Positions 3,854-62,454 of a stretch of DNA of 64,000 bases are shown here, piece after piece. Position numbers and translations under genes: made by a program. The DNA is taken from the NCBI RefSeq assembly GCF_002953255.1, contig NZ_CP026498.1, forward strand, positions 6,956,211-7,020,210, read 5' to 3'. Origin of the DNA: Streptomyces sp. CB01881 (GTDB taxonomy: Bacteria; Actinomycetota; Actinomycetes; Streptomycetales; Streptomycetaceae). Numbering within the stretch: the stretch's first letter is position 1; every line of letters begins with the position of its first letter. The notes beneath the pieces were generated by a model, which had not been told where the DNA came from, searched no databases, and worked only from the letters and a program-made list of their open reading frames with translations.

Positions 3854-6800
3854 ATGAGCCGACGGATTCCCCGCGACGCCGCCCTGTCCGCACCGGCCCC
3901 GCACCGGTGCGGCGCCCGGACGGGAGGGGTGCGGCGACTCCGGCTGGCGGCGGCCGGAGCGTCGGCGGCACTGGCGGCCGGCCTGCTGATCGGCTGGAAT
4001 CCGCCGCACTCCGCGGCCCAGCAGTCACCTGACGCCTGGTCGGGTGACCATTGGGCGGTCCTGCCCTCCGGTCTCGCCGTCCAGCTCGATTTCTCCGCCG
4101 CTCCCGGAGTGGCCGTCGCCGCCGAACCGGGTGAATTGGCCGACCGCGCCGGAGGCGGCCGGGCGGCCGCCCTCTATACCGACGGAGTTCGGCCCGGAGA
4201 TCCCGCGCAGACCTTCCGGATCGCGGAGGACCGTCCGCAGGCGGACGGTTCCTGGCGAACCGTCGGAACGCTTCAGATCGGCTTCTCCCGGCCGGTCCGG
4301 AATCCCCGGCTGCATCTCAGCGGACTCGCCGGAATCGCCGCCGGGAAAGACGGCGCCACCGGCACCGCGGCCCGGCTGACCCTCACCGGCGGCTCGCCGG
4401 CCGCCCCGACCCTGGTCAACCGGACCGACTTCCCCGGCTGGACGGTCGACGGGAACACCCTCGCCCCCGCCGGGGCGGACGGCGGCGCCGACCCCTCGAA
4501 CGGTTCGGCCGCCGAAGGCAGCCTGGAGCTGGCCGGCACCTTCCGCACCGCCGTCTTCCGCGTCGAGCAGCGCTCCACCGCCCGGGACGGCTCCACCACC
4601 GCGCCGCAGCCGCTCGTCGTGGCGGCCACCGTCACCCTGGACGAGGGCGTCGGCACCGCCCCCCCAGGGCTACGGGAACGCCTCCCACCTGCTCTCCGAC
4701 CTCTTCCTCGGCGCGGACGCCACGGCCCCGGCCCGGCTCGCCCGTGGGCCCGCCACCACCTCGCGGGGCCAGACCGACGAGCCGCTCGTCCAACTCGACC
4801 ACGGAGCCGCGCGGCGCAGCGTCTGGTCGAACCCGGCCCCGCCGCAGCTCCAGCCCGGGCGCGGCGAGTACCAGGGCGCCGACCCGGCCGTCAGCTACCC
4901 GGCGGAGGCGGCGATCGGCCACTACTACCGGCTCGTCGTACCGGTCGCGGTGGGCGGCGCGCCCGCCATCCTGGCCGGCTGGGTCGACTTCGACCGCAAC
5001 GGGCGCTTCGACCCCGCCGAGCGGGTGCAGGCCGAGATCCCGGCGGGCGCCGACACCGCCACCCTGGGGTGGACCGTCCCCGCCGGCGCCGCATCCGGGG
5101 AGACCTGGGCCCGGTTGCGGATCGGCCGGGACGCGACCCAGCTGGTGCCGGCCGGCGGCTTCGCCGATTCCGGGGAGGTCTCCGACCAGCGGATCCGGCT
5201 GACTGTCGGCGCCGCCCGGCCCGAGATCGCGATCCCGGTCGACGGCAGCGTGGTCTCCGACGCCCGTCCGCAGGTGCGTGGCGAGGGCGCCGTGACCGGT
5301 GCGACAGTGGAGGTCCGGGACGGTGACGCGGTGCTCTGCAAGGCCCGGGTCGAACGGGGCGGCGACTGGTCCTGCCGGCCGGGCAGCCCGCTCGGTGCGG
5401 GGGCGCACAGCCTGACTCCGGTCGAGACGACCAGCGGCGGTGTGGTGCTGCGCGGCGAGCCGGTCCGGATCACCGTGAAGACCGCGCCGCCCACCGCCCC
5501 CGTGCTCAGCCTCCCCGAGTACACCAACGACCCGGGCCTCCAGCTGACCGGCACCGGGGAGCCGGGCAGCACCGTCTCGGTGGCCGACCAGCCGGCCGGG
5601 GTCCGTGACGACGCCGCCGCCGAGCTGTGCAGCACGGCGGTCCGGTCGGACGGCGGCTGGGCCTGCCTGCCGGTCGAGAACCTGGCGGACGGGCGGTACC
5701 AGCTCACCCCGACCGCCGTCGACGCCGCCGGGAACCGGAGCCCGGGCCGGTCCGCCGCCCTGGTCGTCGACACCGTCCCGCCGGACCGTCCGGTGCTGAC
5801 CGCGCCGGCCGCCGGCGAGACCGTCCGGGCCGCCAGACCGAAGTTCGCCGGGCGGGCGGAGCCGGGCGCCAAGGTGACCGTCACCGCCCGGTCGGGCGGT
5901 GCGGCCTCGGCCGAGCGGATCGTCGCCTGCGGGGCCACCGCCGCCGCGGACGGCGGCTGGAGCTGCACGGCCGGCCGGGACCTGGCGGACGGCGATCAGT
6001 GGCTGGTCGTCACGGCGACCGACCTGGCGGGCAACGGGACGGCGGCCGACGCGGTCACCGTCAGGGTCGCGGGGGTCGGGGCGCCGGCAGCCCCGGCGGC
6101 CCCGACTTCGGTGGCCCCGAGCCCGGTGGCCCCGACTTCGGAGGCTTCGGCGGCGGTGCCTGTGGTGACCGGCGCTCCGGTGGTGCCTGGTGTTCCGTCA
6201 CCTGCCGCGCCGTCACCGGTGGGGCCGGGCTCTCCGGCGCCTTCGCCGGGGACGCCTTCGCCGACCGCGCCTTCGCCGGGGACGCCTGCGCCGACGGCTC
6301 CCGCGTCGCCCGTTCCCTCGCCCTCTGCGTCCCTGACCCCGGCGGCCGCGCCGTCGGCGTCCCCGGTGCCCGTGCCGACGGTGTCGCCCACGACGCCGGT
6401 CCCGCCGACTCCGCCGGTCCCGCCGACTCCGCCGGTCCCCGGCCCCGAAGCTGCGCTGGAACCCGTCCTGCCCGGCCTGCTGCCGATCGTCGTCCCTGCG
6501 GTCGCCGACCCGGCCGGCCGGCCGGTGGTGCCCGTGGCCACGGCCACCACCTCGGTCGGCGTAAAGCCGGGCCAGATTTTGAGCCAGAGCCCGAGCGTGA
6601 ACCCGAGCCCGAGCGTGAGCCCGAGCCCGAGCGTGAGCCCGAGCCCTGACGTGAGCCCGAGCCCGTCCCTCTCCGTTTCCCCGGGCTCCCCGTCCGTGTC
6701 GTCCGCGCCCTCGTCGTCCCCGTCCACCAGGGCGGCCGTTGCCCCGGCGGGAGTCCCTGGTGCGGCGCAGGCGGTGCCCGCCGGGCGGGTGTCCGCCGAG

Positions 6801-10964: not shown

Positions 10965-11987
10965 TCAGCAGGGCTTCCGCCAGGCGTCCAGTTCGAGCTT
11001 CTTCTGCATCGAGCTGAAGCCGAGGGACTTGGTCTTCTCGCAGAACTTCTCCGTGCCGAGCTTGTACTCGACGTGGAAGACCGCCTTGCCCGCCTGCACG
11101 AACGGCGAGAGCCGGGCGCACTCGTTGAACTGGGCGCACTCCTCGTTCACGGCGAAGTCGAAGTCGGGCAGCAGGGCGGGGATCTGCTCCAGGTCGTTCT
11201 TCAGGCCGATCGCCATGCCGCGTTCGTGCGCGAGTCCGGCCAGCATGCGGTTGTACCGGAGCTGGTCGTCGGCGGTCAGCGGGAAGCCGCTGTTCTGGTT
11301 GTAGGCCTCGATGGTGTCCGGTTCGACGGCGTCGAACCCCTTGCTCCTGCACATGTCGAAGCGGGAGGCCATCAGGGGCTTCAGCTGGTCGATCTTGCGG
11401 ATGTCGAACCACTTCTCGCCCTTCCAGCCGTTGCCGTCCCCCTGGAGGGCCTTGGCGAAGGCGGTGGAGTCGGGGCGGAAGTCCTCCCAGGAACCGGCGT
11501 TGATGTAGCAGATCACCTTGCGGCCCTTGGCGTGCAGGGCGGCGACGGTCGCGGCGTCGGTCTCGAAGCCGTCGATGTCGTAGACCGGGACGTCCACCGA
11601 CTGGTCGACGCCGCCGCCGAGTTGCCACTGCCAGGCGAGGCCGGGGGTTGGCTGCCAGCGGGAGCCGGCGGGCTGCGGCGGCGTGCCGGGCGTGCCGGGG
11701 GCGGACGGACTGCCGGGGGTTCCCGGGGTCGCCGGGGTGGTTCCGGGAGTGCCCGGGGTGCTGGGCGTGCCGGGGGTCGCGGGAGTTCCGGGAGTTTCGG
11801 GGGTGGCCGTCGTGGGTGCCGACGGGGTGCCCGGGGCGGTGGTGCCGGTGGCCGCGGGCGGCTGGGTGCCGGTGGCGTCGGCCGAGGGGTCGTCCCCGTC
11901 CTCCGAACCCGAGCTGCTGCACGAGGTCGCCAGCAGGGCGGTGGTCAGGGCGAGGGCGGCCAGCAGGGGCCGGGTGCGGCGTGTCAC
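10965..11987 (-). CDS. GH114-family lipoprotein (endo-alpha-1,4-polygalactosaminidase type)
   Basis: 340 residues. The signal sequence ends in a lipobox (ALLATSCSSSG), so the mature protein is probably a lipoprotein. A spacer rich in PGTP/ATP repeats follows, then a GH114 TIM-barrel: WQWQLGGGVDQSVDVPVYDI, KVICYINAGSWEDFRPDS, the acidic-cluster motif GFDAVEPDTIEAYNQN, and IGLKNDLEQIPALLPDFDFA. Characterised GH114 enzymes such as fungal Ega3 cleave alpha-1,4-linked galactosamine polymers. As the last gene of the locus it may trim or release the exopolysaccharide made by the upstream genes. GGAG lies about 10 bases before the GTG start. Confidence 0.9.
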   Translation of the reverse strand: MTRRTRPLLAALALTTALLATSCSSSGSEDGDDPSADATGTQPPAATGTTAPGTPSAPTTATPETPGTPATPGTPSTPGTPGTTPATPGTPGSPSAPGTPGTPPQPAGSRWQPTPGLAWQWQLGGGVDQSVDVPVYDIDGFETDAATVAALHAKGRKVICYINAGSWEDFRPDSTAFAKALQGDGNGWKGEKWFDIRKIDQLKPLMASRFDMCRSKGFDAVEPDTIEAYNQNSGFPLTADDQLRYNRMLAGLAHERGMAIGLKNDLEQIPALLPDFDFAVNEECAQFNECARLSPFVQAGKAVFHVEYKLGTEKFCEKTKSLGFSSMQKKLELDAWRKPC

Positions 11988-15649: not shown

Positions 15650-17176
15650 TCAGCGGTGCTTGGTGGTGCGGCCGAGCACGGGCCCGGCGATTGCGGTGAG
15701 GACGGCCGCCGCGGCCCCGCAGCCGATCAGCTGCAGGACGGTCGGGTCCACTCCGGTCAGCAGCGCGGTGCACTCGGCGCCCGCGGCTGCCAGACAGATC
15801 AGGGCCGTGCTCCAGCTGAGCCCGAAGGCGTTCAGCAGCAGCGCCAGCCAGAGCGAGCCGCCCAGCAGCAGCAGCGCACCGAGCTCCGGGACGCCGAGCG
15901 CTGGGGCGCCGGGCCAGAGCACGGTGGCGGCGGCGTCCAGCGCGGCCACGGTGGTGAGGTAGATGAACAGGCAGCCGAGCAGCACGCCGCCGGTGCGGCG
16001 GGCGAACGCGGCCGGGGTGTGGCTGGTCCGCAGCGCGGCGACGGCCATCGCCCGGTAGCGGAAGAGCAGCCACTCGGCGAGCCCGAGGCTGAGCGTCAGC
16101 GCGATCATCGCCGGCCCCGTCGGGCTGGCTGACGCGCCTTCGGCGGCGCCGGTGCGGACCGCCTGGTGGACGGTGGCGCCGAGGCCGGCGATCAGGGTGA
16201 GCGCGCCGACCGCCAGCCCGAACAGCAGGTGCGGCAGCTCGTGCAGGAGCGGGAGCCTCAGTGCCGTGGAGTCCTGCTCGCTGCGCAGGCAGCGGACGAT
16301 CTCCCGGGCGGCCAGCCCCACCGCCAGCCCGAGCGAGGCCAGCAGGACGACCGTCCGGGCCAGTTGCGGCACGTCGACGGCGAGCACCACGCCCGCGCCG
16401 ACCGAGGACGGCGCCAGCGCGACCAGCAGGAACTTCTCCCGGCCGAGCACCAGCAGCACGGTGGCCGCCGCCAGGTAGCCGGACTGCCCGGCGGCGAAGC
16501 AGAGCGCCCCGAGCGGGCCGCCGATCACGTACCCGGCGGTGGCCGCGACCAGCGCGCCCAGCGGAGCTCCGACGGCCAGGCAGAGCCCGGCCGCCCGGCG
16601 CCGGCCGCGGCCGAGCCAGGCGTACGAGCGGTGCGCCAGCGCCTGGTTCCAGGACCAGCTGACCAGGGTGGCCACCGAGAGCGCGAGCATCCCCGAGGGG
16701 AGGCCGAAGCGCATCCGGGTGGCCGCGAACAGGTTGGCGCCGAGCAGGTAGCCGAGCCCGGGCAGGGCGAAGACCAGGCCGCGCACCACGCAGCGCCAGG
16801 GGTCGGCCCGCCAGGGGTTGGCGAACTCGGCGCTCGGGCCGGGGTAGCGGCGCTCGACCTTCTCGAACAGCTCCTCGGCGACGGTGAACGCGTCGGGGCG
16901 GCCGTACAACAGCCCGGCCTGCTCGTCGGAGAGGCCGTCGGACTCCAGGAAGGCCGCGATCTCGTAGGGGTGGACGGCGTCCGCGCAGACGTCGGCGAGC
17001 CGTTCGGCCAGCTCGTCCAGCGGGTCGGGAGAGAGGTCGAGCTGCTCCTGCGGCTCGACCGGCTGCGTGGGCACCGCCTGCCGCCGGCGCTTGCGCGGGA
17101 GGGTGCGCAGCTGCACAGTCTGCTCGGCCCAGTCCGGGCCGGCCTCGTCGGGGACGAGACGGAGGGGACCACTCAT
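15650..17176 (-). CDS. Polytopic membrane protein of the exopolysaccharide locus
   Basis: 508 residues starting MSGPLRLVPDEAGP. About 120 N-terminal residues are cytoplasmic and charged (LDELAERLADVCADAVHPYE). They are followed by roughly 12 hydrophobic segments, for example VVRGLVFALPGLGYLLGANL and GLCLAVGAPLGALVAATAGY. I do not recognise a named family. Its position right after pelF suggests a partner of PelF in polymer synthesis, export or flipping, as PelG/PelE are in Pel systems, but no sequence motif proves this. The ATG overlaps the stop of the last 77-bp-repeat mini-ORF (ATGA), and its GAGGTGG ribosome site lies inside that repeat. Confidence 0.75.
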   Translation of the reverse strand: MSGPLRLVPDEAGPDWAEQTVQLRTLPRKRRRQAVPTQPVEPQEQLDLSPDPLDELAERLADVCADAVHPYEIAAFLESDGLSDEQAGLLYGRPDAFTVAEELFEKVERRYPGPSAEFANPWRADPWRCVVRGLVFALPGLGYLLGANLFAATRMRFGLPSGMLALSVATLVSWSWNQALAHRSYAWLGRGRRRAAGLCLAVGAPLGALVAATAGYVIGGPLGALCFAAGQSGYLAAATVLLVLGREKFLLVALAPSSVGAGVVLAVDVPQLARTVVLLASLGLAVGLAAREIVRCLRSEQDSTALRLPLLHELPHLLFGLAVGALTLIAGLGATVHQAVRTGAAEGASASPTGPAMIALTLSLGLAEWLLFRYRAMAVAALRTSHTPAAFARRTGGVLLGCLFIYLTTVAALDAAATVLWPGAPALGVPELGALLLLGGSLWLALLLNAFGLSWSTALICLAAAGAECTALLTGVDPTVLQLIGCGAAAAVLTAIAGPVLGRTTKHR

Positions 17177-17552
17177 GCGTCCACCTCGTTGCACTCGGCG
17201 GCCGCTTCGCGGGACACGCTGCTCTTCACGGTTCGCTCGCTGTGCTCGTTCACGCCGCCACCTCGTTGCACTCGGCGGCCGCTTCGCGGGACACGCTGCT
17301 CTTCACGGTTCGCTCGCTGTGCTCGTTCACGCCGCCACCTCGTTGCACTCGGCGGCCGCTTCGCGGGACACGCTGCTCTTCACGGTTCGCTCGCTGTGCT
17401 CGTTCACGCCGCCACCTCGTTGCACTCGGCGGCCGCTTCGCGGGACACGCTGCTCTTCACGGTTCGCTCGCTGTGCTCGTTCACGCCGCCACCTCGTTGC
17501 ACTCGGCGGCCGCTTCGCGGGACACGCTGCTCTTCACGGTTCGCTCGCTCAC
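17173..17552 (-). other. Array of five overlapping mini-ORFs (translational relay)
   Basis: Mini-ORFs on the minus strand run 17552-17481 (23 codons), 17484-17404, 17407-17327, 17330-17250 and 17253-17173 (26 codons each), plus stops. Each starts with GTG, begins VNEHSERTVKSS (the first VSERTVKSS) and ends AECNEVAA (the last AECNEVDA). Each stop overlaps the next start as GTGA, and each has GAGGTGG 5-7 bases before its start. The first overlaps the pelF stop; the last overlaps the membrane gene ATG. 77 is not a multiple of 3, so the frame shifts at each unit, yet the relay is kept. Whether the peptides have a role is unknown. Confidence 0.7.
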
Positions 17553-17558
17553 GCCGTC
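17183..17558 (-). repeat. Five tandem 77-bp direct repeats between pelF and the membrane-protein gene
   Basis: Copies start at 17183, 17260, 17337, 17414 and 17491. The first four are identical over 77 bases. The fifth lacks 9 bases near its end and runs into the pelF stop. Each unit, read on the minus strand, contains GAGGTGGCGGC then GTG. The array covers the whole gap between the two genes. The junction at the pelF end (GACGAGGTGACGGCGTGA) resembles the repeat edge, so the array probably expanded from this gene junction by slippage or unequal crossing-over. Confidence 0.95.
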
Positions 17559-19054
17559 ACCTCGTCGCGCTCGCCCAGGGCCACGGGCTCGTCCCAGCCG
17601 GCCGGGGCGCCGTCCTGGACCGCGACCACGCCGTTCGGCAGCCAGCGGGAGGTGCCCAGCAGCTCGGTGTAGATGCCGCGGAAGCCGTCGATGTTCTGGC
17701 GGAGCGTGAACTGCTCGATCACCCGCAGCCGGGCCTGCTCGCCCAGCCGGGCGCGGCGCTCGGGGTCGCGCAGCAGCTCGATGGCGGCGGCGGCCATGGG
17801 TTCGGGTTCGCGCGGGGGGACGACCAGGCCGGTGTCGCCGACGGCCTCGCGCACGCCGCCCACGTCGGTCGAGACGGTGGAGCGGCCGCAGGACATCGCC
17901 TCGATCAGGGTGAACGGGAAGCCCTCGCTGATGCTGGAGAGCATCACCACGTTCCCCGCCGCGTACGCGTCGGTGATGTCGGCGACGCGGCCCTCGAAGG
18001 CCACCGAGTCGGCGATGCCGAGCTCGGCGGCCAGGGCTATGCAGCCGTCGCGGTACGCCTCGCCGCCCTTGGGCGTGCCGCCGAACAGCCGCAGCCGGGC
18101 CTCGGGTATCTCGCGCTGGACGATCGCGAAGGCCCGGATCAGCGTCTCCAGGTCCTTGATCGGGTCGACCCGGCCGGCCCAGCTGAGCGTGGGCGTCTGC
18201 GGCTCGGGTCCGGCGGGCGGGAAGGCCGCCGGGTCCACGCCGTTGTAGACGGTGCGGATGTGTGCGGACGGCGTGCCGCCGCGCTCCTCCCAGCGCCGGT
18301 TGTACCGGTTGCCGGGGGTGACCAGCGCGGCCCGCCGGTAGCTTTCCTCGGCGAGCATCCGGTAGAAGCCCAGCAGCAGTGCCTTGACCGGCCAGCGGTA
18401 CGGGCCGGTGCGGTAGCCGAGGTAGCGCTCGCGCAGGTAGATGCCGTGCTCGGTGAGGAGAAACGGTACGCCGTACTGCTGTGAGGCGATCAGCCCCGGC
18501 AGGGTGGCCAGGCCGCCGCTGGCGGCGTGCGCGACGCCCTCCTTGGGCGGCTCGGCCGAGAGCGGGCGCAGCGCGTGTTCCAGCAGGTCGGTGGCGTTGA
18601 GCGCGTCGTGCAGGGTGGGCCTGGAGACGGCGGTGGAGAGGTAGTCGCGGGTCCACACGTGCTGGAGGGTGCGCAGGGCGCGCTCGCTCCGCAGGGCCGG
18701 GCTGAGCAGCCCGCGGCGGGCGAGGTCGGCGAAGCCGTACAGCTCGGTGCCGAAGTGGGTGGTGTAGACCGGGTCGAGGATGGAGTGCAGGAAGCGCTCG
18801 TACGCGTTGAGGAAGCGGCGCATCTCCTTGCCCCGCGGGGCTCTGCCCTCGATGGCCGGGCCCCAGAGCGGCGCGGTCGTGACGGACCGCACGTTGGCGG
18901 GCAGCTCCCAGGCCAGCGGTTCGTGGCCGGTGCCCGTGACGGCGATGATGTCGAAGTCGACGTCCGGCATGCCCTGGACGAGCTGGTCGCACCAGACGCT
19001 CACACCGCCGTGCTGGTGCGGGTACGTCCCCTCGGTGAGCAGGGTGACGCGCAT
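17549..19054 (-). CDS. pelF: PelF-type GT4 glycosyltransferase
   Basis: 501 residues with the PelF N-terminal signature MRVTLLTEGTYPHQHGGVSV and WCDQLVQGMP. A long insert follows, then the GT4 C-terminal Rossmann half: VYNGVDPAAFPP, LSWAGRVDPIKDLETLIRAF and the nucleotide-sugar motif ISEGFPFTLIEAMSCG with E377 and E385. There are no membrane segments, so it acts in the cytoplasm and would polymerise a UDP-sugar, in Pel the N-acetylgalactosamine donor. It has a strong AGGAGGGGGG ribosome site 106 bases after the deacetylase-like gene. Its end overlaps the first mini-ORF of the 77-bp repeat array. Confidence 0.9.
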   Translation of the reverse strand: MRVTLLTEGTYPHQHGGVSVWCDQLVQGMPDVDFDIIAVTGTGHEPLAWELPANVRSVTTAPLWGPAIEGRAPRGKEMRRFLNAYERFLHSILDPVYTTHFGTELYGFADLARRGLLSPALRSERALRTLQHVWTRDYLSTAVSRPTLHDALNATDLLEHALRPLSAEPPKEGVAHAASGGLATLPGLIASQQYGVPFLLTEHGIYLRERYLGYRTGPYRWPVKALLLGFYRMLAEESYRRAALVTPGNRYNRRWEERGGTPSAHIRTVYNGVDPAAFPPAGPEPQTPTLSWAGRVDPIKDLETLIRAFAIVQREIPEARLRLFGGTPKGGEAYRDGCIALAAELGIADSVAFEGRVADITDAYAAGNVVMLSSISEGFPFTLIEAMSCGRSTVSTDVGGVREAVGDTGLVVPPREPEPMAAAAIELLRDPERRARLGEQARLRVIEQFTLRQNIDGFRGIYTELLGTSRWLPNGVVAVQDGAPAGWDEPVALGERDEVTA

Positions 19055-62365: not shown

Positions 62366-62403
62366 CGCCCCTGCCGTCCTCTCGTCGTCCTCTTGCCGTA
62401 CGT

Positions 62404-62454
62404 CGGGCACGTGTTGCCGCACTCGGGCACGTGTTGCCTACGCGGGCACGTACC
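62404..62454. promoter_or_regulatory. Direct repeats CGGGCACGTGTTGCC upstream of the amidase
   Basis: CGGGCACGTGTTGCC occurs at 62404 and 62424, with a third partial copy CGGGCACGTACC at 62443; spacing is 20 and 19 bases. Each holds the palindrome CACGTG or part of it. Confidence 0.55.

Follow-up and report, generated by a model that had tools for sequence, protein, structure and literature searches.

The window, a stretch of 64,000 nt from Streptomyces sp. CB01881, contains on its minus strand, between positions 10965 and 19054, a gene group which resembles a Pel-type exopolysaccharide locus and comprises, besides pelF, genes of a GH114 protein (PF03537), a GDP-mannose dehydratase/epimerase and a nucleotidyltransferase. 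On this strand, pelF is followed by five coupled mini-ORFs and a gene of a membrane protein (Table 1) for which a Pfam search returned zero families. The mini-ORFs start at 17552, 17484, 17407, 17330 and 17253, followed by the ATG of the membrane gene at 17176. Tandem Repeats Finder (TRF) reports a repeat at 17181-17549 with a period of 77, 4.8 copies and 100% matches, whose score of 738 is the highest in the window; further repeats detected by this program, with periods of 18 bp and 20 bp, are located at 6580-6665 and 62393-62451. The end of pelF reads GTGA (17552-17549), the final mini-ORF stop and the membrane-gene ATG share ATGA (17176-17173), and the sequence GAGGTG is found 5 nt upstream of every start. 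Both the sequence and TRF confirm what the original prediction had described, namely five repeats each furnished with a ribosome site, a start and a stop which overlap at the joints, and coupling at all six joints, each of which turns out to be a 4-nt overlap. The spacing of 77 bp and the peptide length of 26 residues assigned to the repeat apply to units 2 to 5, but not to unit 1, which has a spacing of 68 bp (9 bp less) and encodes 23 residues.

Table 1. Features of the array between pelF and the membrane-protein gene (positions within the window).
Feature	Position	Strand	Evidence
pelF, upstream gene, PelF-type glycosyltransferase	17549..19054	-	PF11997 DUF3492 (E=2e-58) and GT4 domains
Probable remnant of another unit in the pelF C-terminus (GAGCGCGACGAGGTGACGGC, ...ERDEVTA, stop)	17553..17572	-	Sequence; pelF tails of relatives
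Unit 1 mini-ORF, 23 aa, short form lacking 9 bp of HP1	17481..17552	-	Sequence
Unit 2 mini-ORF, 26 aa, VNEHSERTVKSSVSREAAAECNEVAA	17404..17484	-	Sequence
Unit 3 mini-ORF, same as unit 2	17327..17407	-	Sequence
Unit 4 mini-ORF, same as unit 2	17250..17330	-	Sequence
Unit 5 mini-ORF, ...NEVDA, stop overlapping the membrane-gene ATG	17173..17253	-	Sequence
Unit 5 HP3, GCGGCCGCC-GA-GT-GCA-AC-GA-GGTGGACGC, contains the membrane-gene Shine-Dalgarno	17177..17205	-	MFE and centroid fold; family pair counts
Membrane-gene Shine-Dalgarno GAGGTG, from unit 5; same motif at each internal start	17182..17187	-	Sequence
Membrane-protein gene, downstream; ATGAGT start at the last joint	15650..17176	-	ORF; empty sites of relatives

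The occupancy of the pelF joint varies among relatives. The joint is clean and empty in four distant relatives, holds one unit in six species, two units in two and five in Streptomyces sp. CB01881, while in four nearer relatives no whole unit is present and the pelF tail ends in SEV(G/R)A, a remnant of the unit. Across these 17 species the copy number is therefore 0, 1, 2 or 5, and the variation for which a check had been suggested does exist. Relatives with both genes but without any mini-ORF, which had been named as evidence against a relay, exist as well, yet they point to a history of insertion rather than to the absence of a relay. The pelF products of relatives end in ...AAAERSEVGA, ...PSEVGA or ...ERSEVTA, and such a tail is missing from pelF of the distant relatives with clean empty sites. 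In Streptomyces sp. CB01881 itself, GAGCGCGACGAGGTGACGGC in the pelF tail probably represents the remnant of one more unit. The native start of the membrane gene in the empty-site relatives is ATGAGY or GTGAGC.

A DNA search of the genome revealed that the array matches seven additional loci, where one to four units are situated at the start codons of ordinary genes. By means of a sequence-only covariance model built from 13 units, which served for the family search, 32 strong units were found in the Streptomyces sp. CB01881 genome. The consensus peptide is MSERSERxxxRCALREAPAERSEVGA, and the unit ends in GAGGTGGGCGC-ATGA or near it. Units are present in 62 of 70 Kitasatospora genomes (0-65 per genome) and, within an even sample of the actinomycete class, in 19 of 297 genomes and 12 of 115 genera; pattern matches on named contigs belong, for example, to K. 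aureofaciens CPD02 and K. xanthocidica, and also to Micromonospora, Planosporangium and Streptacidiphilus. The host genes, which include dnaJ, nuoI, cobQ, kdpF, lipB and pafC, are unrelated, and some sites (dnaJ, kdpF, pelF) are filled across several species. Since a family of identical joint architecture recurs at dozens of unrelated loci, the array is well beyond chance. The notion of a device special to pelF and the membrane gene is not supported, as the repeat is dispersed genus-wide and precedes unrelated genes; a pelF-specific regulator was rejected for the same dispersal. The repeat unit has no match in Rfam, Pfam or NCBIfam, and a description of the element was not found in the open-access literature, either by sequence or by concept.

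Pairs of filled and empty sites allow the point of insertion to be defined. At the nuoH-nuoI joint, eight relatives show the empty sequence ...GCGATC(T/G)C directly followed by ATGAGY, while in G023, G008, G021 and G004 the joint is filled at the same base and reads ...GCGATCTC followed by ATGA...GGGCGC and then by ATGAGY. Further filled/empty pairs were obtained for cobQ, pafC, a nuo neighbour, fabH and others. The 77-bp insertions are clean, their flanks are 90-97% identical to the empty site, and TGAG is the target sequence that is repeated. Of ten informative loci, nine have as left base R the base which prevails among the native starts; at the tenth, L095, it differs from the native start of the relatives. 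The last joint carries ATG in every array, even where the native start is GTG. From the match of the left base and the constant right-hand ATG we conclude that the native start is kept on the left while a new ATG arises on the right. AGY is present at the joints of 114 of 121 units, internal ones included (ATGAGY in 111 of 121); among ordinary coupled junctions it occurs in 13 of 59. According to a rough count, RTGAGY is found in intergenic regions at least as often as at start codons, and no intact copy of the element resides there, meaning either that start codons are targeted or that insertions elsewhere have been lost. Comparison of the filled with the empty sites shows an insertion of 77 bp exactly at a native RTGAGY start codon.

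The array set used to assess coupling consists of 113 entries from about 25 genomes, a few being duplicate fetches. A script scored 102 of these entries as coupled. Inspection of the remaining 11 by eye revealed that seven are coupled and four are fused in frame (L053, L101, L103, L114). Among the coupled ones, the joint is TTGA in one case, and in the rest a second hairpin repeat lies in frame. Joints are ATGA or GTGA throughout and rarely TTGA. In every one of the roughly 110 arrays translation is open into the downstream gene, by coupling or by in-frame fusion, and with 0 breaks the coupling on which the proposed stop/start relay depends proves to be strongly constrained. On public contigs, which stem partly from the same genomes as the main set, 104 of 107 arrays are coupled, one is fused and two which the script had missed (L225, L263) are coupled on inspection. 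Distant-family copies likewise lie at starts and are coupled, the joint of L400 being shifted inside the unit. Indels relative to the consensus occur in 47 of 123 distinct units, and each net frameshift is either compensated, as in L006 (+1/-1), L052 (-1/+1) and further instances amounting to roughly ten independent cases, or yields an in-frame fusion with the next unit or gene. The sole exceptions seen are L385 and L387 in the Streptomyces sp. CB01881 genome, decayed remnants which do not lead to a start codon; L389 is a fragment lacking a clear start of its own. What is kept is the frame, the peptide sequence being conserved only weakly.

Some units deviate from the consensus. In L388 and L275 an internal deletion has left nine codons of the mini-ORF (MSERSEAGA or MSERSEVGA, followed by the stop), and coupling is still present. 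In L053 (genome G006), which consists of three units in a row, and in L103 (G004), located upstream of a probable TetR-type regulator, the units have turned into in-frame extensions at the N-terminus of the host protein. The second hairpin repeat, TGGGGGTNCCCCCGGCCGAAGGCTGGGGGAG, which is likewise dispersed, sits inside units at L134, L140, L141, L146, L197 and L263; in these units, which belong to K. aureofaciens and relatives, the mini-ORF is open and coupled, and the inserted repeat is read in differing frames.

Three hairpins can be assigned to the unit. HP1, spanning positions 1-23, folds the start codon onto the unit interior; its outer pairs are R1-Y23, T2-A22, a tandem G-A/A-G, G5-C19 and C6-G18, and its inner pairs, closing a GNA loop, are a tandem G-A/A-G, G9-C15 and C10-G14. 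Thirteen units show a joint exchange of the tandem G-A/A-G at 3-21 and 4-20 for G-C and A-T. HP2 (NCGC-GAA-GCGN') includes the top mutual-information pair of the whole unit, 42-52 (G-C 48, T-A 14, C-G 14), and is perfect in 70 of 91 units versus 14 in column shuffles, a frame-shifted variant, GGGC-GAAT-GCCC, being included. HP3 (49-77), which again has a GNA loop, encloses the Shine-Dalgarno of the following start; the predicted unpaired fraction of this motif amounts to 0.26 at filled versus 0.46 at empty sites (p=2e-10). HP2 and HP3 cannot form together, and each of them is conserved. The covariation score of HP1 together with HP2 is 0.281, compared to 0.127 when shuffled and at most 0.129 in any slid control, while that of HP1 together with HP3 is 0.168 compared to 0.129 when shuffled. 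Minimum free energies of the units are neither below those of dinucleotide shuffles nor unusual for the base composition, so that the support for the hairpins comes solely from covariation. A DNA fold of HP1 by itself is weak except for the CTC variant; the stability of tandem G-A pairs and GNA loops may, however, be underestimated by the energy models.

The outermost pair of HP1 links the element to its host site. In first units, R1 and Y23 are paired in 88 of 100 cases (A-T 43, G-C 45, mismatches 12), the partner of R1 being Y14 in short units; Fisher's test on the 99 T/C cells yields p=2e-16, a value which overstates independence as the sequences are related. In arrays whose first unit begins with G, about half of the later units break this rule, which therefore reflects the insertion junction and not a need at each joint. 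It is probable that the host R(T)GA pairs during insertion with the element bases GAAY at the foot of HP1. A shortened form of the unit also occurs: the first or single units of L001, L002, L004, L007, L008, L035, L060, L071, L078, L095, L096 and L135 are devoid of 9 bp corresponding to one GNA segment of HP1, with the R-Y pair to the start codon kept.

Concerning a possible mobiliser, no Y1 transposase (PF01797) was found in G000 (32 units), G011, G012, G016 and G066. Carriers without Y1 include the Streptomyces sp. CB01881 genome, and some other carriers possess one. A RAYT/Y1 transposase as mobiliser is not supported, Y1 being absent from several carriers. IS110 (PF02371) is present in six of six high carriers and missing from five of the eight genomes that have few elements or none; exceptions are G002, with seven matches and at most one weak element, and G066, with one match and 32 units.

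On the basis of these observations we consider it likely that the array arose by local amplification from a small dispersed insertion element of actinomycetes, which is non-autonomous and resides at start codons. Comparison among genomes shows its dispersal, its insertion at start codons and the preservation of coupling. Upon insertion the native R remains on the left and opens the mini-ORF, while the element equips the host gene on its right with a new Shine-Dalgarno and a new ATG. A ribosome that comes from the upstream gene or starts at the native site would read the mini-ORF of 23-26 codons, unfold HP3 and thereby expose the next Shine-Dalgarno, stop at the TGA within ATGA or GTGA and restart on the host gene. 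HP3 would render this handover obligatory, and HP2, vying with HP3 for one strand, may prevent the site from closing again once the ribosome has passed. Later duplications would account for the tandem copies and add relay steps. A relay through the mini-ORF would make the insertion close to expression-neutral, and the element is probably neutral or nearly neutral for the host gene.

An insertion element is not the only conceivable origin of such a distribution. Similar gene starts might have exchanged ancestral copies through ectopic gene conversion or recombination, without a dedicated enzyme and thus without strict mobility. We regard this as unlikely, despite the facts that no transposase is linked to the repeat, that ATGAG is nearly always present at the right joint and that units within an array are near-identical, so that recombination acts on them; the 77-bp insertions, clean and flanked by sequence 90-97% identical to the empty site, speak against it, and gene conversion would not predict the complementarity of R1-Y23 to the host base. 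An error of sequencing or assembly, by which a tandem array was collapsed or expanded, could be suspected from the near-identity of the five units and from a genome completeness score of 88%. However, independent assemblies of relatives show 0, 1 or 2 coupled units at the same joint and arrays of 2-4 units recur at other loci, which renders an artefact extremely improbable.

The remaining alternatives ascribe a function to the repeat. As a cassette beneficial to the host it could adjust or condition downstream translation through an HP2/HP3 switch or through ribosome supply, tuned by array length as the original prediction had suggested. The conserved mutual exclusion of both hairpins, the predicted sequestration of the Shine-Dalgarno, the filling of the dnaJ, kdpF and pelF sites in several species and the varying unit number at the pelF joint would all fit. 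Yet there is no evident common function among the target genes, any given copy is missing from most relatives, and a range of 0 to 65 copies per genome within one genus fits spread better than need, so we judge a cassette to be rather improbable. Still less can be said for the peptides acting themselves, as leader or arrest peptides or as free small proteins, which had been proposed along with the relay and which we consider very improbable. Frames are indeed open in all arrays and third codon positions are somewhat more variable, but this excess falls largely in two CGN codons of synonymous appearance, which correspond to the free loop bases of the GNA hairpins. Moreover, pN/pS between orthologous sites amounts to 0.70, compensated frameshifts (L006, L052, L059) swap whole stretches and rewrite half the peptide while the frame stays open, and units are found fused, cut to 9 codons or with a foreign hairpin in frame. 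A cysteine-attenuation leader was rejected since the Cys codon is not conserved throughout.

Among known systems, IS608 picks its tetranucleotide target via base pairing with the element (PMC5934647). Like IS200/IS605 elements (IS608) and REP/RAYT, the present repeat is small and hairpin-bearing, and the R1-Y23 complementarity may be akin to the target pairing of IS608. Unlike both, it is located at start codons and bears a Shine-Dalgarno and a mini-ORF. It also differs from REP/RAYT in lacking the GTAG tag and in possessing three hairpins, two of them overlapping; instead of a GTAG- or CGTC-tagged extragenic palindrome of 20-40 bp we found a 77-bp unit which is not extragenic and always continuous with coding frames. 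Rickettsia palindromic elements (RPEs) occur as in-frame insertions within protein genes (PMC2229807, a review). As in RPEs, Correia/NEMIS, ERIC and RU-2, we are dealing with small dispersed repeats tolerated since frames stay open. However, RPEs and ORF-bearing MITEs lie within or between genes and become part of a protein or of intergenic RNA, whereas here insertion occurs at the start codon, giving rise to a separate peptide and to expression passed on by stop/start coupling. The mini-ORF is nearly always separate and coupled, in-frame fusions of the RPE kind being few (L053, L101, L103, L114, L391); in comparison with MITEs (ERIC, RUP, Correia), the ends CGAGCGNAGC and GGTGGGCGCATGAG do not form inverted repeats and there is no TA duplication.

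Coupling with a sequestered ribosome-binding site and a -4 nt overlap is exemplified by phage f1 VII/IX (review PMC12548453). The repeat shares with it the ATGA/GTGA overlaps and a hairpin on the downstream Shine-Dalgarno which a translating ribosome could open, both the stop/start overlap and the occluded downstream ribosome-binding site being present by prediction; the upstream ORF, in contrast, is an inserted repeat, occurs in tandem and precedes dozens of unrelated genes. For mycobacteria, short upstream ORFs have been proposed to bring ribosomes downstream (Shell et al. 2015, PMC4633059, as cited in PMC12548453). They resemble the repeat in that a short ORF perhaps serves ribosome delivery alone, and differ in being gene-specific, while the repeat units form one homologous dispersed family. 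Small interspersed repeats and coupling with a sequestered ribosome site (PMC12548453) are already known. What would be new is a family situated at start codons and carrying its own relay, no example of which was encountered in the open-access literature.

Small bacterial repeats are mostly intergenic, presumably as insertions into operons break expression. The present family appears to have solved this problem by landing on start codons and rebuilding initiation via coupling, up to five times consecutively, and this within operons, among them nuo and dnaK. It is a tentative idea, about which we are slightly more doubtful than confident, that start codons are recognised by pairing of GAAY with RTGA, that each insertion constitutes an obligatory ribosome relay and that tandem growth adds steps before essential operon genes, which would make the family the first class of mobile element whose target and survival strategy are the translation start. 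The family raises the new question of which enzyme or process selects start codons. If the solution by coupling is real, the dozens of filled/empty pairs would represent a natural experiment on the strength, cost and sequence needs of coupling, and the element would account for odd mini-ORFs and N-terminal extensions in actinomycete genomes.
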